Source: Paramacrobiotus metropolitanus
Lineage: Eukaryota > Tardigrada > Eutardigrada > Parachela > Macrobiotidae
Length of the DNA: 64,000 nt
Assembly (NCBI RefSeq): GCF_019649055.1
Contig: NW_026570222.1
Coordinates: 2,170,001-2,234,000, forward strand
Direction of reading: 5' to 3'
Below the pieces are notes generated by a model, which had not been told where the DNA came from, did no database searches, and saw only the letters and a program-made list of their open reading frames with translations. Below are positions 14,356 through 60,610 of this stretch, piece by piece (the first letter of the stretch is position 1; the number at the start of each line of letters is the position of its first letter). Made by a program: the position numbers and the translations under genes.

Positions 14356-15938
14356 TTACAGTAACAAAATAGGACCACTAAAACTACTCAACTTCTTCCG
14401 TGGGCTCTGATTTCGATTTTTCTTCTTCTTTTTCTTCTCTTGTGGATGTTCAGCACCACCTTCGGGATCGACTTTCTCTGCCGAGACACTCTGCCAGGCC
14501 GCGTTGTAGTCGGGAATGTCTATTTTCTCCTCCTTGACTTTCGCTCCATCTTCAGCTTTCAATGGATTATACTGATAATCCACGTACATTTTCTGCCAAT
14601 CAGTCGGTGTCTTCTCATTAGGTTTTCCGTGCTTATCCAAGATGCCACTCTTAATCATTAGTTTCTTTTTTGCCGCCACTGGGCCAAGACCCCATTTCCT
14701 CGGATAGGTATCGCGATCCATAATGACGCGCTTAATTTTAGCCACTACACCATGATCGCAGGTGGCCATGACAGCGGTGGTCATCAGTGCCACAGCCAAG
14801 GCAACCGCTTCACCCTTGGTGGTGATGACCACTATCTCCTGGTTCATTTCGATCCCGTCGTCAAACCGCAGCACGCCAGGCAAGAGAATCTTCGCGCCGT
14901 AGCATACGGCATTTACCGCACTATCCTTCATGATGATTCTCTTATGGGATTTCAGTAAGGCTTCCAGCGGCTGAATAACCCGTCGGAGGTACGATTCATC
15001 CTGCATGTGGTCATACATCCACTGCGCATCCATAACATCGTGCATGGTGACCAGATTGGCCTTCTCATTCTGAATACCCGATCGCACGCGGCGCAGTTCT
15101 TCCATGTGGCCGCCGACGCCTAAATACAATCCAAGATGGACGCATAGTGTCCGGACATAGGTTCCCGCTTCGCAGCTAACCCAGAATACTGCCAAGCTCT
15201 TCTCTTTATCGAATTCCAACAGTTTGCTCTCGTAGATGGTGCGAATGCGCAGCTGCCGTTTGACAGCGGCAACAAGTGGAGGACGCTGAAACAAGGCTCC
15301 GGTCAGATTCTCAATGGCCTGCAGTAATTTCTTTTCATCCTCCACGGGACTGTGGAATTTAGCGATGCCTACGTACTCTTTTCCGGCACTCTGCTGGCTT
15401 TTCACCAGACGGGTGGCGCGCTCCACGCAGACGATCAGACAACCCGTTACTTTGGGATCCAACGTACCGGAGTGGCCTGTTTTCTCCACGCGCAGAATAC
15501 GCTTAATCCAGGCTGCCACTTCGTGGCTGGAGGGATTGGATGGTTTATCCAGATTGATGAAACCGCTCCGCACGTACTCCTTAATATCCCGCTGCTGGGG
15601 AGAGCAGCCGTGGGGCAGCGGCGTGTAGTGATTGGTCCGCACGTTCATTTTGTCGAAGTTTTTCAGTAGAAGAGGCCATTTTGCCGCACGATATACAGCG
15701 GGCTCCTCTGAAGGTTGGATGAAAACCTGTGGAAAAAAATGATAATATGAAGAAAATATCAAAAGCTGCTGCAACAAAAATTTTCGACAATAAAGGCGCG
15801 AGCCATATCCCAGTTAAGGAAATTACCGGTACAACGGAAAATGGGGAACCCAGCACGAGTGCTCACCTGCTCGTTCGCGGGAACTTCAGCTTCCTGTCGG
15901 TGTTTCTTGGATTTTTTCTTTTCCGACGTTTCCATCAT
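14356..15938 (-). CDS. DKC1: Dyskerin, H/ACA pseudouridine synthase
   Basis: Two exons, 15867-15938 and 14356-15726, give 480 residues. Exon 1 encodes a lysine-rich leader, [20 protein letters not shown]. The track-length frame beginning within the intron is not the true start. The protein is near full-length dyskerin (Cbf5/NOP60B), the catalytic subunit of box H/ACA snoRNPs and telomerase. It has the DKCLD segment [15 protein letters not shown], the TruB catalytic loop [14 protein letters not shown] with the catalytic Asp, and [31 protein letters not shown] and a PUA domain around [18 protein letters not shown] follow. The C-terminus has a long lysine run, typical of the nucleolar localisation tail. 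It diverges from AAMP across 531 bp that should hold both promoters. Confidence 0.98.
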
Positions 15939-34255: not shown

Positions 34256-35198
34256 AAGAAAAGCATCACTGATGCATCCGGTTTAGTTGGTCACGGCGCA
34301 GAAGGTGGCGACGGATGGTTACAGATCTTCGGGCAACGGAAGGTTAGGATAACTTTCGAAAACTCTTTCACAGCATTCACAAGCAAATCGTTTCCGAGAA
34401 GAATCGTGAACGACTATTCTTCTGTATTAGCTTACAGAAACTTCGGGGAGGGAGTCTTAACTGAAAACGTTTTGGCAGTCCGTTTTTATGCATAAGATTT
34501 TGATCCGGATCCCACGTCATTCCCGTGATTGGCTTATCAATACGAGAGACGTGCGGAATCCAACGACCGGAAGGCAGGGAGGATTAGGCTAAAGGAGTCG
34601 CGCCGGACTGGTGGTCCGATCAGCAGTGACCGGATGCCAAGATTTCGGCAGCCTGCCGTGTGCCGTTGGCAAGGACAAAGGGCGTAGTCCTCTTTATTCT
34701 GTTCCATGTTTCATGAGCCGGTTGTTGAACGACGTCAGTATTCCACTTATCATCCTTCCACGCGCCAATATTGGCGCGTGGAAGGATGATAAGCTGGCCG
34801 AAATGATTAATCATTTCGGCCAGCTCCAGTCTTGCGGATAGTCTAGACAGACAGCGGTTGCCTTGGAAAAATGCCCCCAGCCGCTCAGTTTACAGCAGAG
34901 TCCGGACGAAAGCATAAAAACGATAGACTTTTGGACGGTGGGTTCCAGAATTCGAAATGCACGGCCACAGGATATTCCATTTAATTATGGTACAGTGACC
35001 ACTACAGTCACCTGTCACGAGTACGAGTACATGCTGCGGTTGAGTTTCGCCTGTCCGGCGTTACGGCTTCCGCCTGTGTTTACGCACTTGTACATCGTTT
35101 TGCAGAAAAATCAATCGAGCTGCTTTTACAGCTTGTACGGGATTTATCTGCCAGATCAGCCAGAAATTTTAGAATTTCGAAAAGTCCGTATTCGATAA
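34256..35198 (+). CDS. Unrecognised protein, two candidate exons (weak)
   Basis: Two candidate exons, 34256-34342 and 34896-35198, join in phase and follow plausible AG acceptors (TTGCAG and TTTACAG). The second encodes 100 residues rich in aromatic and beta-strand-like segments (YGTVTTTVTCHEYEYMLRL, then FTHLYIVLQKN) and ends at 35196-35198. The donor after exon one (GTTAGG) is weak and no start exon was found. I do not recognise the family. The intervening intron would contain the double palindrome. It lies 139 bp upstream of the selenoprotein start. Confidence 0.3.
34746..34823. repeat. Two abutting perfect palindromes, 48 bp and 30 bp
   Basis: 34746-34793 equals its own reverse complement over 48 bp, with its centre in CCAATATTGG. 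34794-34823 does the same over 30 bp, with its centre in GATTAATC. There is no spacer within either palindrome or between them. Each could extrude as a cruciform, or fold as a spacer-free hairpin in RNA. Confidence 0.95.
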
Positions 35199-35337
35199 CT
35201 TGAATCTGATGAATGATATTGATTAAACATTAAACTTTTTGCCTTCATTAATAACTTATACGTTAGAAATTTATCAAACTCAGTAAGTACAAGATTTCGT
35301 TTCAAGATTATCTGGGGATAGACTGGTGAAGTGCAAC

Positions 35338-36358
35338 ATGGCACATTCGGGAAACGATGGCGTCAAGGTGGAAGTGGAATACTGGTATGATGATTGCTTT
35401 CCTACATATACGATGCTTATTTAACCTTGTACTTGGAAGCTGCTGACACAAATAAAGTATGGTGTGCGCAGCTGCATGAGAATTATACACATCACAGGAT
35501 TACAACAGGAATGCGTATTGTCATTCCTGGCAGGAATGGAGCTGTTTATTGTGCTCGTATCGAATACGTAATTACAATGTGTTGTCTGTTTACTCCTGAA
35601 CAGCGGTGGATGAGGTTACGCCCCCCGTTATGGGGAACTGGAGAGAATAATTAAGGGAAAAGTTCCGAATGCCTATGTCACTGGGCGAGTGGGACGATCA
35701 AGTGAGTGGTCGGTGTGCATACTTTTTGGAACGTCATTGGATTGTTGGTTTTTAAGTGATTTTGAAATGGTTTGCGACTGAGGTCACATCTCTAACGTAT
35801 TCTTAGTGCCATTGACAATCCTGTATACGTTTTGCTGTCTGGGAAATGATTTGGAATGGTGGATGTACGTATTTTTGTTCATTTCTCACAGCATCCTTCG
35901 AAATTGTTGTTAACGGACAGTTGGTCTTCTCCAAATTGGAGCGTGGCGGATGGCCGGACTTTAATGAGGTAGATCGCCTTAAACAAAAATTCAATATCGT
36001 ACTAATAAAACATTAACTACTCGTCTTTGGTTTTTTATTTTGAATGTTTTCGTATAATATTTTGGATTTTCCGAAAAGGGAATTTTTTCCAAGTCCAGTT
36101 TTCACAGTCGTTTCTGATTATTTTGGAGAGTATTACTATAAGTGATTACGCAGATTGATATTTTATAAGTTTATAGTATAAATATAAATAAAAACATATG
36201 AATGTGTTAAATATTTTCATTTAGAGCTAGAGGTATCGTCAAGCAGAGCAGTGAACTGTAAATATTTTTTTAAGATTGCAGAGATCGTGCGCAATGTCAG
36301 CGCCGGAGGTAAGCCGACGCAGGCGGAGAAGTCGCACTCCAGCTGCACGATCCTGTAA
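35338..36358 (+). CDS. MIEN1: Selenocysteine-containing MIEN1/SelW-family (Rdx) protein
   Basis: Four exons join in phase: 35338-35384, 35604-35701, 35892-35968 and 36275-36358, 101 codons including one TGA read as Sec. The thioredoxin-like Rdx fold is clear: GVKVEVEY, then the redox motif C-G-G-U-G-Y with Sec at 35611-35613. It continues ELERIIKGKVPNAYVTGRVG, FEIVVNGQLVFSKLERGGWP and IAEIVRNVSAGGK. The FEI.VNGQLVFSKLE.GG block and the C-terminal CTIL CaaX box are MIEN1 features; human MIEN1 ends CVIL and is prenylated. Human MIEN1 has CxxC where this protein has CxxU, which matches SelW. Roles would be thiol redox control and, by analogy with MIEN1, membrane-attached signalling. A SECIS element follows 55 nt after the stop. 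Without Sec decoding the protein would stop after about 19 residues. Confidence 0.9.
35611..35613 (+). other. UGA selenocysteine codon
   Basis: In-frame TGA in exon 2, eight bases after its acceptor. The preceding Cys codon is split across intron 1 (TG|C). The resulting CGGUGY matches the CxxU redox box of selenoprotein W. Coding continues for 82 codons in the same frame across two further introns, so this is not a chance stop. Confidence 0.9.
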
Positions 36359-36412
36359 AGGAATGTTAGTAACATCGGTTTCACGATCGGATGCGTTGTT
36401 TGTGCTGTGAAA

Positions 36413-36485
36413 CGGTTTCGGAAGTTCCCAATGAAGCGCTTGTGAAAACCCGCAAAACGGATCATTAGCGTGGATGCTTGAACCG
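36413..36485 (+). promoter_or_regulatory. SECIS element, type II fold
   Basis: In the 3' UTR of the Sec gene. The 5' quartet strand is AUGA at 36431-36434 and the 3' strand GGAU at 36472-36475, fitting the K-turn-like SECIS core. Helix II pairs 36436-36445 with 36462-36471: nine of ten pairs, two G-U and one U-U mismatch. The unpaired AAA sits at 36446-36448, 11 nt after AUGA. A 3-bp mini-helix (CCG 36450-36452 with CGG 36458-36460) above it makes it type II. Below the core a UCCCA internal loop (36426-36430) leads to helix I: AAGU 36422-36425 with GCUU 36476-36479, and CGGUU 36413-36417 with AACCG 36481-36485. Confidence 0.8.
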
Positions 36486-37180
36486 ATGGAATGCAGTTCA
36501 CAGTGTGAATGCGCATTTGATTTTGCTTTTTTAGGTTTTGTTGCTTACATGCTTCCATTACTTTTACATACAGTTAGTTACAGTACTTTGCAATCAGATA
36601 CTGTAACAATTTGACGTCATTTAGCCGTGTCGCCCTTTGATTATTGGCACTCCCATTCTTTCTTCGCGCTTTTAGTGTGCAGTTTTTGTCGTTCCTTATG
36701 CCGTAGTACTTTTCATTAAACTTGCATGCAAATAAATTACGTTCAACTGATCCTTTTCCAATTAACATAAGATCCAAAAACAAATTTGCTCCGCATAAAT
36801 TATAAACAAACAAACAAGTTTGCGGTTTGCCACTTGAAGTGGAAAGATTTCCCGGTACCGAACACGAATCAAAATGCCAAATCAGTGTTGTTATATGAAA
36901 TATGTAACTCTGTATGCACCTGCAGCATGCTTCGGGTGTTCAACTATGTATAAACAATTGCCATCAAATCTCGAACGAAATTAAAGATTTAGAAAAAAAC
37001 AAAATCAGAAAGAACAAAAGAATTAAAATAAATAATCAGCTCCAACAGAACCGGAAATGTGCATCAAAGTTCACAATGAAAGTTCACAAAAAGCTAAAAT
37101 GAAAATTAATAAAGATAATTTTACGGGTCAAAAAAATCACCATAACTGGAATATAAACGCACAAACCGACAAGGCCACAG
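36486..37180. other. Convergent spacer, Sec gene to SNX6
   Basis: AT-rich sequence between convergent 3' ends. It contains no credible coding frame. It presumably holds the remainder of both 3' UTRs. Confidence 0.5.
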
Positions 37181-38909
37181 TTAAGCCGTTCCGTTGCGCC
37201 CAGACCGCAGCGCCTCCAGAGACGTTTGCAGCAGCTGAAAATGATTTTTGGCATGTTTCAGTTCCAGCTCGGCCAACTCAACTAGACCTTTTCGGAAGGC
37301 AATAACGCGACGCTGACGATAATCTTTTAGCTCGCTGCGCGCCAACTCTGTGATAGACTCGAAACGCTTCTGGCATTCTTCGCGATGTGTTTCGGCCGCA
37401 TGTACGTCCTTGTTCTTCATCTTGGCCTTTTCCAAATTCTTCGTAGCCTCCTCGAAATCATGCAGACAGCGGGCACGACGTAGGCACAGATCCTTGGCCG
37501 CTTGGGTTTCGCGCTGGTAGTACAGCAATGTATCGGTTAACTTTAAGTCATGATCGGCGGATTTTTTAAACTCCGTCTTGCGCGACTTTTCGAGTATCTC
37601 CGAACAATCTTCCAAGAATTTGGTAAGAGCCGGCTGCTCGGCAGCGGCCAGCTGCGACATGAACGAGGACATTTTGACGTGATCGGTGATGACTTCCTTA
37701 TGCTTCTCCACCACTGTATCGCTCTTTTTGGCTGCTTCTTTAACGTGCGTGTGATATTCGTTTAGGAAGGATTTTTGCTGTTCAAAGTATTCGTCCACGT
37801 CTTTCTGGCCGGAAAGCAACACATCGTCGGCTTGCTTGAAAACCGCTTTTTTAATGCTGTCAAACATTTCGCGCTTGTTTTTTCCTCGAATACCAATCTG
37901 TAAAACGAAAACAACTGAACCTTTTACCAAAAAATAACTCAAAATAAATGTATTAAAGGAGCATAGTGAAGCGTTATAGTTTCGCCAACTACGCATGTTC
38001 TTAATTTGTCCAGCTGCTGACACGATGAGCAACTAGCAAGCATGTTTAGCTTATAGCCTTATACTCTTGAGCGTGAGTGCATACCTCTTGTTCATATTCC
38101 AGAAAAACGCGGAAATTCATGTCGTCGCGCAACTTCGGATGAGTGGCAAGCCGAATCAGGAACGCCTCATGCATCGCAACGGTCTTCTTGAATAAGGCCA
38201 AATATTCCGCTTCTAAATCGGCTTTGAACTTGGCAAATTCCTCCTTCGTCATCAGACCTTCGGATTCTCCTAATTGCTGCAGCTTCCGTCGGGAGGCCTC
38301 AAAGTCGGGGAAAGGCGGCGACGGGGGAATCTGAAAGAAAATATTAATCAAAAACTACGCCAAATGATGTACGGACAAATCCTTAAAGTATGCACTGTAC
38401 CGCCAGAAATTTCACATCAGCAGTAGAATTAACTGGACCACATGACGGCAAGAAGACTATTTTACTAAGGAATTCCATTCAGTTTTTTTTTTTATTCTGA
38501 ACCCAGGAAATTAATGCCGAGCAAAATAATATGTGCACAACACTGTACTTCAGTGTATCATATGGGTTTTGTCCGCAAAATTAACAAGCGCATTTTTTTT
38601 GTTTAACAGGAACTTACGACAACGAACATCAACACAGTTACTCACGATATATCCAGCATAATCAGGATTCTCCAGGAATCGATCATGCAGCCAAACGAAT
38701 TCCTCGTGTTCGCGCACCACCGAGAATTCGGGTTTGCGGAAGGCAGGCAGTGTCGTGCGCGTGTGCACCGTGAATTTGACTTTGTCCCGTTCGCTGACGG
38801 CGTCAGAAATGTCAACAATCAGGGGCGATTCAGCCAAATCCACCGTCTCGGCCCGTTTCCGCTCCTTGTCGATGGGGATGTCATGTGTGGCGTCACTGTC
38901 CCCCAACAT
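37181..38909 (-). CDS. SNX6: Sorting nexin of the SNX5/SNX6/SNX32 group
   Basis: Three exons, 38646-38909, 38085-38330 and 37181-37897, give 408 residues, close to the 406 of human SNX6. The start [19 protein letters not shown] is chosen because the PX domain follows directly. The PX domain contains [19 protein letters not shown] and [18 protein letters not shown], then [15 protein letters not shown] across the first junction. The BAR domain, a long coiled coil, runs through [19 protein letters not shown] to the last ~30 residues, [23 protein letters not shown]5/6 pair with SNX1/2 in the endosomal ESCPE-1/retromer coat and recycle cargo from endosomes to the Golgi. The PX domains of this group bind cargo rather than PI3P. 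The paralogue (5, 6 or 32) cannot be assigned firmly; similarity looks closest to SNX6. Confidence 0.93.
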
Positions 38910-56007: not shown

Positions 56008-56080
56008 CGACCACGATGGGAATTGAACCCACATACTTCTGATTCGAAGTCAGACGCCTTAACCATTAGGCCACGCGGCC
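56008..56080 (-). tRNA. tRNA-Arg (anticodon UCG)
   Basis: A 73-nt cloverleaf without intron. The acceptor stem GGCCGCG pairs with CGTGGTC, with two G-U wobbles. The anticodon arm CTGA-CTTCGAA-TCAG places UCG in the loop. The T arm is GTGGG-TTCAATT-CCCAT, and the discriminator base is G. Internal promoter boxes are present (B box GGTTCAATTCC). It reads CGA and related Arg codons. CCA is not encoded, as expected for a eukaryotic gene. Confidence 0.95.
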
Positions 56081-56636: not shown

Positions 56637-59612
56637 TCATTCCTTGAGTAACTTGGTGTTACAAAAACGTTTAACAAAGGTCAGCTGGCTCCAGTTGACG
56701 GTATCGAGCGCAGTCGTGAACACGTTGAGCGTGGTATAACTTTTCTTGTCTAGAGCAATTTCATTCCATAATAGCGCCAGGCGACTCGAGAGGGAGTCCG
56801 GGGAGGGCGGTAGAGTTTTTCCACATAAAGTTGTTGGTGCCGCCACAATGGGGAACGGGTGTCCACATAGCCGCAACGCTGACCGTGTATTACCTGAAAC
56901 AGAGGACACAGCGACAGCAGTTTGCTCATACAGTAAAAAGAACCGTTCACCAAGTGGGATACGGTTGAACACAAGTTTATAAATTAAGACAAGGCTATGT
57001 TTCAACCTACGTAATTCAAAACAGTCCCAGTTTAGCTCCAGCAACCGCCCTTTAAGACTGGTATTACCAAGATAAAGTGAATCAAGGAAACGAGATAAAC
57101 AACGTTCTAATTTTTCCCGGCAAGTTTTATTAACAGGCGCAATAAAAGGGCAGCAATAATCAAACGCCGTGAACACCAAAGACTTGAACAACTGAATTCG
57201 AGCGGCAGAATCAGCTTTCCTGAACGCAATATTAATCCAGCGTATTTTTTTACGCAGTTTAGTTACCAAAATGTCGGTATTGTCTTTGAATTTCAAACTG
57301 CGGTCAAAAAGTATACCTAAATATTTAACACAGTCGCTTTTCTCGATCGCATTACCATTAAGATAATACCGTGAGTCAACGATCGGCACCCGTTTTTTCG
57401 AAAAGGAAATATGGTACGATTTCAGAACATTAAATAGAAGTTTATGGTTTTTAGCCCAACTTTCTACCGCAGTAAGATCAGACTGTAACGCAATTTCATC
57501 AGCTCTTGTTGAAACTGGTCGGTAAAGAGCTATATCATCGGCGAAAATAAGCAGCTCGCTGTTGTTGAGCAGCGCAGAGGGTAAAAAATTTAATACACAA
57601 AGGAAGAAACACGGCCCAACAACTGACCCTTGCGGCACACCGCTAGTAACATTAATAACTTCCGATACACAACCATTAACCATTACACACTGCTTCCTGC
57701 CTTTCAGGTAATCAGACACCAAGTGTACTACCTGACTATTAATTCCCACTTTAATCAAAGCTTCCACAATAACCTGATGATCACATTTGTCAAATGCTTT
57801 TGAACAGTCCAGAAATAAAGCATGAACTTCTACGCCATTTTCAATGAAATCTGTTGTAGACTTTACGAACCAAGAGATCTGTAGTTCGCATGACCGCTTC
57901 TCCCTGTAACCAAATTGGTGATCAGTTAATTTTTGATGAGTTTTTAAATAATCACGAATGTATTCGTCAATACAACGTTCAAAGATTTTGGAAACAGGGT
58001 TCAACAGAGAAATTGGCCGGTAATTGAGAGGGCATGTCTGATCTTTAGAACTTTTGGGAATAGGAGATATGTACGACAATTTCCAGCATGCCGGATAGCA
58101 ACCTTCATTGACCGCTGCAGTAAAAATTAATTTTAGAGGCTTTACAACTACATTAGCACATAATTTTAAAAGTTTATTCGTTATTGCAAACGGACCGCTA
58201 GACGACGAAGGCGAGCAGTTAGCAATGTGATAGAAAATCATTTCTTCAGTAATATTAAAAGGTTCAGCTACATTACTTGCACAGATATCGATATCAGAGC
58301 TACGACAGTGACGATCACATGGGCCTAGAGAATTTGCAAACATCTGGTTCAAAGCGGTTGCTTTTTCGGAATCTTTTGAAAGAACTGAACCGTCATCCAT
58401 TTTCAGTGGAGGAATTCCAATTCGGTCATCCGCTGACTTAACATAATGCCAAAATTTTCGCGGGTTGTTACGGGCTGCAGTTGCGGCTTCGGTAACCTGA
58501 TAGTTTTCAAAATTACGTATTAACTTCTCCGCATGCTTACACAGATTTTTCCAGTGAATTTTATAATTTTGAGCGAGAATAGAATTATTATTTTTTACTG
58601 AATTTCGATATTTTTCAAAAGCAGTATTCCTTCTTCTGATAGCTCTTTTTACGTTACTTGGATAAATGATAGTACCCTTACGTTTCGCTTGACCGTAAAC
58701 AAAATATCGCTTTGCAATGGACAAAAACAAAGATTCAAATATTTCTACACGTTTATTCGTATCAGCATTTCGAAACTGCTCATTCCAATTAACAGATCCC
58801 AAATCATTGACAAAAGCAGATACTTTGTCCGCAGCAATTTTCCAACTCGGCGGGCTGAAGATAGGTGATTTTTTGCGCTTAATAGATAACATAAGTTCGA
58901 AGGCTAAATGATCGTTTTTAACTGAGGGAGGGCTGATTGGTTGGATGCCCATTACCAAATTTTTAGGTGATAAAATGCAGAGGTCTAGACAATTTTTCAG
59001 ACGAGTAGGGAAATCAACAATTTGCCTTAACCCAAATTCCTTCATTGCAAAAATTAATTCTTCCCCAGTCCCAGAGTTTCCTTTACAACTGTTCCACTCT
59101 ATTTCAGGCAAGTTAAAATCACCTATTATTATTAGCTTAGACATTACTGTTAATGGGATGACAGATTCAAGATGAGTAACGAAAACTGGTAACGAGGACT
59201 GCACTTTAGATGGAGATAAATAAACACACACAATAATCCTGTCAATGGTTGGAATTTCGACGAATATCGCTTCGACACACGCAAGCTCATATTCAATACG
59301 CCTAAAACTTTTCATGTTTTTACGAACAATGACTGCTACCCCTCCACCATATCCGTATTCTCGCCGTTTACGAAAGACATTGAAAGAGCGTAAATCCGCA
59401 AACTTGTTATCCGTAATAGCTTCATTGTCCCAAGTTTCAGTTAGACCGGTTATATCCGCATCAGCACAAAAAAGTTTAACCTGACAACTTTTATTTCTCA
59501 CACTGTTCACGTTACAGCAGCGGATCTTAATTGTTTTAAGATTGCGGATATTGCTTCTTGCTGGAAGTTTGCACTTCGCCAAATTCACTGAACCAACTTT
59601 GTCAATTACCAT
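56637..59612 (-). CDS. LINE ORF2: endonuclease-reverse transcriptase
   Basis: A 991-residue uninterrupted ORF. The N-terminal APE-like endonuclease shows GLTETWDNEA, GGGVAVIVRK, IIGDFNLPEIEW and the SVKNDHLAFEL end motif. The reverse transcriptase follows, with PLNYRPISLLNPVSKIFERC (region of motif 2), ALFLDCSKAFDKCDHQ, TSGVPQGSVVGPCFF and the catalytic LIFADDIALYRP. LSFSKK-like and KYLGILFDRSLKFKDN segments complete the thumb side. Such enzymes nick genomic DNA and reverse-transcribe their own RNA at the target. The key acidic residues seem intact, so this copy may be young. There is no RNase H domain that I can see. The ATG at 59612 lies upstream of the endonuclease start. Confidence 0.95.
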   Translation of the reverse strand: MVIDKVGSVNLAKCKLPARSNIRNLKTIKIRCCNVNSVRNKSCQVKLFCADADITGLTETWDNEAITDNKFADLRSFNVFRKRREYGYGGGVAVIVRKNMKSFRRIEYELACVEAIFVEIPTIDRIIVCVYLSPSKVQSSLPVFVTHLESVIPLTVMSKLIIIGDFNLPEIEWNSCKGNSGTGEELIFAMKEFGLRQIVDFPTRLKNCLDLCILSPKNLVMGIQPISPPSVKNDHLAFELMLSIKRKKSPIFSPPSWKIAADKVSAFVNDLGSVNWNEQFRNADTNKRVEIFESLFLSIAKRYFVYGQAKRKGTIIYPSNVKRAIRRRNTAFEKYRNSVKNNNSILAQNYKIHWKNLCKHAEKLIRNFENYQVTEAATAARNNPRKFWHYVKSADDRIGIPPLKMDDGSVLSKDSEKATALNQMFANSLGPCDRHCRSSDIDICASNVAEPFNITEEMIFYHIANCSPSSSSGPFAITNKLLKLCANVVVKPLKLIFTAAVNEGCYPACWKLSYISPIPKSSKDQTCPLNYRPISLLNPVSKIFERCIDEYIRDYLKTHQKLTDHQFGYREKRSCELQISWFVKSTTDFIENGVEVHALFLDCSKAFDKCDHQVIVEALIKVGINSQVVHLVSDYLKGRKQCVMVNGCVSEVINVTSGVPQGSVVGPCFFLCVLNFLPSALLNNSELLIFADDIALYRPVSTRADEIALQSDLTAVESWAKNHKLLFNVLKSYHISFSKKRVPIVDSRYYLNGNAIEKSDCVKYLGILFDRSLKFKDNTDILVTKLRKKIRWINIAFRKADSAARIQLFKSLVFTAFDYCCPFIAPVNKTCREKLERCLSRFLDSLYLGNTSLKGRLLELNWDCFELRRLKHSLVLIYKLVFNRIPLGERFFLLYEQTAVAVSSVSGNTRSALRLCGHPFPIVAAPTTLCGKTLPPSPDSLSSRLALLWNEIALDKKSYTTLNVFTTALDTVNWSQLTFVKRFCNTKLLKE

Positions 59613-59683
59613 GAAATTATCGTTTAGGCAATTATCATTGGAATCAGCTGGATTAGAAGAAATATGACCTTTAAATTCAAAAC

Positions 59684-60610
59684 TCAGTAATTTTTGCGGT
59701 AAACCTGCACGTTTTTTACTGAGCTGTTATAAAACATCCTCGACTTGTATATATTTTGGTAAACACTGCAGTATTCAAAAGCGAAAGCCGCATGCGGATT
59801 ATTATTATTCAGTTTACCAGCCGTTTTGCAATTTACGCACTCGTATTTAAAAGATGGGTCGTTTTCAGGGCAGTCAGTTGAGAGGTGTTGTTTCGCACAG
59901 TATCCACACACTGCATCTTTCACGCACTTCGAAGCTACATGATAAAATTCACAACATTTTTTACACTGTGGCACATAAAAGTGATCAGTTACTGGACAAG
60001 AATACCAGCCTAGTAATACGGATTTCTTTGCAGCTAGAGCATCACGTGTTTTGATATCTACATCAATTACAGCAGCATAGGTCAACGGGTTAGGGCGGTT
60101 GCTGGTAAGCTTTTTCACTATTTTTACTTCGGTATCAGCGGATAAATTTCTCAGTTTTAACTCGGAAATGAAGTCTTCTTCAGGCATTGCAACTGGTATC
60201 CTACGTACGATCATACGCTGTTTACGAGCTTTTGGCTTTTCGACATTAACCCCAAGCTCATCACTGTATTTTTTGAATAAAGCTTCACCGTTAGTTGCGT
60301 CACCAGCAGTTCCAAACTCGATAACGACTGACTTACCAAATCCCGGACGGACTTTAGTGACATTTGCGCCGCTGGCTCCGGTTGGAATCGTAGCAGATAG
60401 CGTCTTGCAAAAATCTGTCATTTCCTGTGGTGTTTTGCGCGACTGAGTAGCCAAGGAGGAATCCTTTGGTTTTAGCACAAGCACATTCTTGTTGGGCATA
60501 CTCTTAGGATTCGGCGATGCGGAATGGGAAGTAACTGTGGCGTAGGTCGGTTTCGAAGGAACAGGATGATGTTGGAGAGATTCGATTTCCAACAGTGCGG
60601 TTTTGTGCAT
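59684..60610 (-). CDS. LINE ORF1: zinc-knuckle nucleic-acid-binding protein
   Basis: About 308 residues from the first in-frame ATG (60610); an upstream TAG in the same frame lies near 60674. The middle has an RRM-like stretch (RMIVRRIPVAMPEEDFISEL). Near the C-terminus are CCHC-type knuckles: CKKCCEFYHVASKC (CX2CX4HX4C), CGYCAKQHLSTDC and a looser CVNC. It probably binds the element's RNA as a particle protein. This ORF1 type is usual for jockey/CR1-like elements of arthropods and relatives. The N-terminus may be incomplete, because the ORF starts with a short Ser/Pro-rich tail rather than a recognisable domain. Confidence 0.85.
   Translation of the reverse strand: MHKTALLEIESLQHHPVPSKPTYATVTSHSASPNPKSMPNKNVLVLKPKDSSLATQSRKTPQEMTDFCKTLSATIPTGASGANVTKVRPGFGKSVVIEFGTAGDATNGEALFKKYSDELGVNVEKPKARKQRMIVRRIPVAMPEEDFISELKLRNLSADTEVKIVKKLTSNRPNPLTYAAVIDVDIKTRDALAAKKSVLLGWYSCPVTDHFYVPQCKKCCEFYHVASKCVKDAVCGYCAKQHLSTDCPENDPSFKYECVNCKTAGKLNNNNPHAAFAFEYCSVYQNIYKSRMFYNSSVKNVQVYRKNY

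Follow-up and report, generated by a model that had tools for sequence, protein, structure and literature searches.

Structure of the gene

We analysed a 64,000-nucleotide stretch of DNA from the tardigrade Paramacrobiotus metropolitanus, which we call the window. Its G+C content is 41.3%; a value of 43.46% is given for the genome of the species in PMC8277472. A gene of four coding exons lies on the + strand of the window, with an in-frame TGA in exon 2 and a SECIS-like element beyond the stop codon. The features of the locus are as follows (a slash marks the splice junction):

35338-35384, + strand: coding exon 1, MAHSGNDGVKVEVEY plus the first two bases of Cys; starts with ATG; donor CTG/GTATGA
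35604-35701, + strand: coding exon 2, which carries the CGGUGY redox box; acceptor ..GAACAG/, donor CAA/GTGAGT
35611-35613, + strand: in-frame TGA, predicted selenocysteine (Sec), residue 19; in the alignment it stands opposite the second Cys in the CEPC box of MIEN1
35892-35968, + strand: coding exon 3, SFEIVVNGQLVFSKLERGGWPDFNE; acceptor ..CTCACAG/, donor GAG/GTAGAT
36280-36283, + strand: tandem 3' splice site AG/AG of intron 3; the CaaX frame is kept by the second AG only
36284-36358, + strand: coding exon 4, with the CTIL CaaX box and the TAA stop codon (36356-36358); acceptor ..TTGCAGAG/
36413-36485, + strand: type II-like, SECIS-like element with its AUGA core at 36431-36434, an AAA at the apex and a GGAU in the 3' arm
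36715-36736, + strand: candidate polyadenylation signals ATTAAA (36715) and AATAAA (36731), by consensus match only; 3' of the SECIS

The coding sequence of the four exons is 297 nt long, contains one in-frame TGA and ends with TAA. The three introns (219, 190 and 315 nt) are all of the GT...AG kind, and their phases are 2, 1 and 0. Upstream of the ATG of exon 1 there is an in-frame stop at 35284. The predicted protein consists of 98 amino acids: MAHSGNDGVKVEVEYCGGUGYAPRYGELERIIKGKVPNAYVTGRVGRSTSFEIVVNGQLVFSKLERGGWPDFNEIVRNVSAGGKPTQAEKSHSSCTIL. When the genome was searched with this protein, residues 1-16 mapped to exon 1, with E 0.37 alone. The initial annotation had joined the four exons in phase by reading through the TGA at 35611-35613, and the elements that it described all lie where it had put them.

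Several other features were observed in the window. Two perfect palindromes, 48 and 30 nt long, adjoin each other at 34746-34823, 0.5 kb 5' of the gene. miRNA-like Rfam matches fall on the same positions, all of them under the gathering score, and probably only reflect the palindromes. On the 3' side, a gene for a Vps5/sorting-nexin-like protein (37181-38032, - strand) is convergent with the four-exon gene. Also on the - strand are a gene for Dyskerin with DKCLD, TruB and PUA domains (14356-15813), a LINE-type element (56637-59726) that encodes endonuclease and reverse transcriptase domains and, past the 3' end of this element, a tRNA gene (56008-56080).

The product as a member of the Rdx family

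A Pfam search with the 98-aa protein gave Rdx (PF10262) alone, with 65.4 bits at a cut-off of 22.6; this family comprises SelW, SelT, SelH and MIEN1. Exon 3 by itself scored 24.5 bits with the Rdx profile, which is also above the cut-off. In NCBIfam, the first match was CXXU_selWTH (TIGR02174; 62.5 bits, cut-off 34.2). Five distinct sequences of the PDB matched the protein at E up to 10. The best of them was human MIEN1 (2ljk, E 4.8e-17), with an alignment that reaches the CaaX box, followed by mouse SelW (2npb, E 6.8e-6) and by three bacterial proteins with E from 0.09 to 1. The protein is identical to MIEN1 at 39 of 91 aligned residues, if Sec is counted as Cys, and to SelW at 23 of 72. The homology across the TGA (MIEN1, E 4.8e-17; Rdx, 65.4 bits) is far beyond chance. 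Compared with the two animal reference proteins, the product is nearer to MIEN1 than to SelW, which supports its predicted assignment to the SelW2/MIEN1 branch.

It had been noted initially that the TGA falls in a CxxU redox box and that mammalian MIEN1 uses Cys there. Both statements agree with our alignment: the box reads C-G-G-U-G-Y, its TGA stands at the Sec/Cys site, and human MIEN1 has Cys at this position in its CEPC box. An alternative reading is a decaying pseudogene, with the TGA as a nonsense codon. However, no other in-frame stop interrupts the 98 codons, the GT-AG introns are intact, and the 79 residues past the TGA align with MIEN1 as far as the CaaX box. We therefore regard gene decay as extremely improbable.

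With the 98-aa protein as query, five matches at E up to 10 were obtained in the genome. Four of them are the exons of the gene itself, and the fifth, a weak one, lies on another contig (C42:1043162-1043350). This stretch is intronless, 29% like the query protein (E 0.49), carries Cys at the Sec site and is flanked by stops; no SECIS-like place was reported in 2 kb around it. We took it for a chance match or, perhaps, a relic copy. A third Rdx match, on contig C23, remained under the cut-off (19.2 bits, E 0.21). The open frame of this match (1385826-1385945) resembles the second half of the Rdx domain, also under the cut-off (18.8 bits, E 0.0019), and may be one exon of a third gene of the Rdx family. 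Among viral and prokaryote contigs, the search for relatives gave 7 and 47 pattern stretches, respectively, and none was confirmed.

The SECIS-like element

The initial annotation had placed a type II SECIS at 36413-36485, 55 nt after the stop codon. A SECIS-like hairpin of a type II-like form does lie there; the spacing has to be corrected, as the span starts 54 nt past the stop. We scanned the whole window with a generic SECIS pattern (R-UGA, a helix of 9-13 bp, apical AA, GA and a lower helix). The + strand gave a single place (36431, score 29), and the - strand a single, weak one (score 17). Applied to four other loci, the scanner found the element of SPS2 (score 28) and missed that of SelT. 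In 400 Markov sequences with matched dinucleotide composition (51.2 Mb of strand), the scanner reported 1407 places, 55 of them with a score of at least 29. The expectation is 0.008 per 300 nt for any match and about 0.001 per kb for a score of at least 29.

SPS2 and SelT are unlinked genes of this genome with an in-frame TGA, and each has a SECIS-like element on its 3' side. These two elements and the one in the window have a design in common, AUGA-A-10 paired positions-16 or 17 nt with AA-10-GGAUG, with pairing at 8 or more of the 10 positions. In the window, this design occurs once on the + strand and not at all on the - strand. In the other loci examined (some 115 kb of strand, overlaps included; a locus that is part of the window was left out), it occurs only at the SPS2 and SelT places, the former recurring in three overlapping loci. 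Random sequence contained 129 such places in 128 Mb, i.e., 0.0004 per 400 nt, a rate that is somewhat flattering, as the design was set after viewing the three elements.

In an Rfam search of the window with RF00031 (E up to 10), the SECIS-like element of the gene was not listed. The same model lists the SelT SECIS with 24.3 bits and the SPS2 SECIS with 24.2 bits, both under the gathering score of 35. We also compared the stability of the hairpin with that of shuffled sequences. It showed no exceptional stability, with a z of -0.29 over 101 nt (63 of 200 shuffles were as good) and of -1.43 over 73 nt (43 of 500). Since the elements of SelT and SPS2 are no more stable (z -1.11 and -0.74, respectively), fold stability is uninformative as a test for SECIS. 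By our two scans, the predicted 3' UTR of the gene carries a SECIS-like element with the consensus core, the helices and the design common to SPS2 and SelT.

This element also bears on the origin of the TGA. The codon could be a sequencing or assembly error for TGC or TGT in a Cys-containing MIEN1 gene: human MIEN1 carries Cys at the site, and the assembly was built from long Nanopore reads with short-read data, according to PMC8277472. However, the SECIS-like element 3' of the stop codon has the design seen in two other genes with an in-frame TGA. Because a sequencing error would put no SECIS there, this explanation is disfavoured, and we give it next to no credence.

Sec machinery and other selenoprotein genes in the genome

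We searched the 169.8-Mb assembly (169,799,020 bases, 533 contigs) for the genes of the Sec machinery. With Rfam, 53 of 9093 candidates were scored and one matched tRNA-Sec, with 64.4 bits and above the cut-off; the same search gave matches in 14 of 14 control genomes, above the cut-off in five. ARAGORN did not report a tRNA-Sec, though Rfam found it. The gene (C6:354708-354811) has an insert in the anticodon loop, directly 3' of the anticodon, which measures 18 nt on the assumption of a 7-nt mature loop. The insert is probably an intron, placed as a pre-tRNA intron would be. An intron in tRNA-Sec is rare: a survey of 2017 presents Daphnia pulex as the first eukaryote with an intron-containing tRNA-Sec (PMC5330540).

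Four stretches of SepSecS are located on contig C28, one of them with an internal TAG, perhaps in an intron, and two stretches of the eEFSec domain on contig C4. A PSTK-like gene is represented by one open frame of 394 aa (104.7 bits, under the curated cut-off of 382). Four SPS stretches lie on contig C5, each under the whole-protein cut-off; in the control genomes, this search gave matches in 14 of 14, above the cut-off in two. Upstream of these stretches there is an exon reading LTNFTDLKG*GCKVP, where human SPS1 has LKGTGCKVP, and its TGA (the asterisk) therefore makes the gene a Sec-type SPS2. The L7Ae domain was found in 11 stretches of the genome, five of which were examined, and the best PDB match of the one on contig C83 was SBP2 (7zjw, E 3e-5). 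A further gene, on contig C33, begins with CSYS*GYRKVYEQY and continues with a SelT-like body (TIGR02174, 74.6 bits; pieces joined by eye). We take it to be SelT from the human sequence, together with the family match.

The initial annotation had predicted that the organism has working Sec machinery and had proposed a search for tRNA-Sec, SBP2, EFSec and SPS2 in the same genome. All four were found, SBP2 as a domain, and SepSecS and a PSTK-like gene are present as well.

Further observations concern gene families of this genome. Contig C5 also carries two DM-domain genes 28 kb apart (two of the five DM-domain matches in the genome); two DMRT paralogs are described on scaffold 5 of P. metropolitanus (PMC11191345). 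TPS was found at three loci (contigs C67, C84 and C208, seven stretches), and three TPS-TPP genes are reported for the species. Searches for the arthropod cuticle (PF00379) and nematode TTR-52 (PF01060) families had no match in this genome; as the control genomes had none either, this is no evidence of absence.

Splicing of intron 3 and the C-terminal tail

The CTIL tail needs intron 3 to end at 36283 (..TTGCAGAG/ATC), at the second AG of CAGAG. If the intron is ended at the nearer CAG (36281), the frame shifts, and the protein is 116 aa long with a tail rich in arginine. Retention of intron 3 yields a short form with the tail NEVDRLKQKFNIVLIKH. The initial reading of a CTIL CaaX box as in MIEN1 thus holds given the second AG, and fails with the nearer CAG. 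With BLOSUM62, the score against the MIEN1 tail is 26 for the join after CAGAG and 3 for the nearer-AG frame. In an ungapped comparison of the 24-residue CTIL tail with the MIEN1 tail, 10 of 100000 shuffles were as good; without its last four residues the tail fits weakly, and 2409 of 100000 shuffles were as good.

A Sec-containing SelW2 with another C-terminus would result if intron 3 were mostly retained or spliced at the nearer CAG, and such a protein would be unprenylated. CAG is in general a better acceptor than GAG and here precedes it, and the SECIS is 3' of the stop codon in all three tail forms. Nevertheless, a MIEN1-like tail comes from the join after CAGAG alone. We consider this other C-terminus unlikely. 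It is compatible with a functional SelW2 gene, and our estimate concerns the tail alone. One may also imagine that intron 3, through its tandem acceptor and its open start, acts as a switch between a CTIL-tethered, a 116-aa arginine-rich and a short untethered form, which would bring the Sec redox centre to different parts of the cell. In the same scenario, the tethered Sec form would be the ancestral animal state, and mammalian MIEN1 would have lost selenium. This is a speculative idea to which we assign a low probability.

Interpretation and comparison with known proteins

The nearest match of the protein is MIEN1, the TGA stands at the Sec/Cys site, a SECIS-like element follows the stop codon and the genome has Sec machinery; therefore, the Sec reading of the TGA is supported. 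We conclude, with a probability of about 0.92, that the locus is a functional SelW2 gene of P. metropolitanus, in which the MIEN1/Rdx12 branch within the Rdx family is present in its Sec form; the CTIL tail is less certain.

The gene anatomy, the homology and the Sec machinery genes were observed directly, and from them a course of splicing, Sec insertion, redox chemistry, prenylation and location may be proposed. The mRNA would be spliced from the four exons. By analogy with the protein families concerned, SBP2 bound at the SECIS of the 3' UTR would bring eEFSec with Sec-tRNA-Sec, and the UGA would be read as Sec in C-G-G-U. The product would be a small protein of the thioredoxin fold, in which the CxxU pair may cycle between selenol/thiol and selenenylsulfide. 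As in MIEN1, CTIL is presumably a geranylgeranyl-type CaaX box and would be geranylgeranylated. The prenylated end could tether the protein to the inner face of the plasma membrane.

The gene belongs to a kind that is known. According to PMC3316567, bony fishes, frog and elephant shark have SelW2 as a selenoprotein, and Rdx12 (MIEN1) is the Cys relative in tetrapods. SelW2 is reported in planarian, Schistosoma and Trichoplax, with Sec not spelled out for Trichoplax (PMC3828610), and is included in a table of the selenoproteins of Ciona (PMC2874816). The same three sources propose Rdx12/MIEN1 as a Cys-converted relative of SelW2. Since SelW2 selenoproteins have been described from 2010-2012 on, the surprise expressed in the initial annotation was overstated. 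Its phrase "ancestral Sec form" of the MIEN1 branch fits the literature, in which SelW2 with Sec is described from several lineages of animals. Tardigrade selenoproteins and SECIS matches were mentioned in 2009 (PMC2768748), and 20 selenoproteins with the full machinery are given for a centipede genome (PMC4244043). SelW2 may well be on record already in other panarthropods; our literature search brought up no tardigrade SelW2. With this gene, the known SelW2/MIEN1 kind, in its Sec form, extends to a tardigrade. If the CTIL tail is real, it points to an early origin of a prenylated Sec oxidoreductase in animals, and to mammalian MIEN1, a protein studied for its part in cancer migration, as the Cys descendant. 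Genes with an in-frame TGA in such genomes call for selenoprotein-aware annotation.

Among known proteins, human MIEN1 (C17orf37/Rdx12, 2ljk) is the highest match: the NGQLVFSKLE block is identical, and both proteins have GG(F/W)P and, if intron 3 is spliced at the second AG, a CxIL end. The C-terminus of MIEN1 is given as CVIL in PMC3527542. The two differ at the redox site, where MIEN1 carries Cys (CEPC) instead of Sec; in addition, the N-terminus of the tardigrade protein is shorter, and its part after GGWP lacks three residues relative to MIEN1. Mouse SelW (2npb) belongs to the same Rdx family and has the same redox site, but the match is weaker (E 6.8e-6) and stops at residue 81, short of the tail. 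The SelW2 proteins described in fish, frog, elephant shark, Ciona, planarian and Schistosoma, and named in Trichoplax, resemble the tardigrade protein, as far as these sources describe them, in being small Rdx proteins with Sec in the CxxU box and the Sec counterparts of Rdx12/MIEN1.
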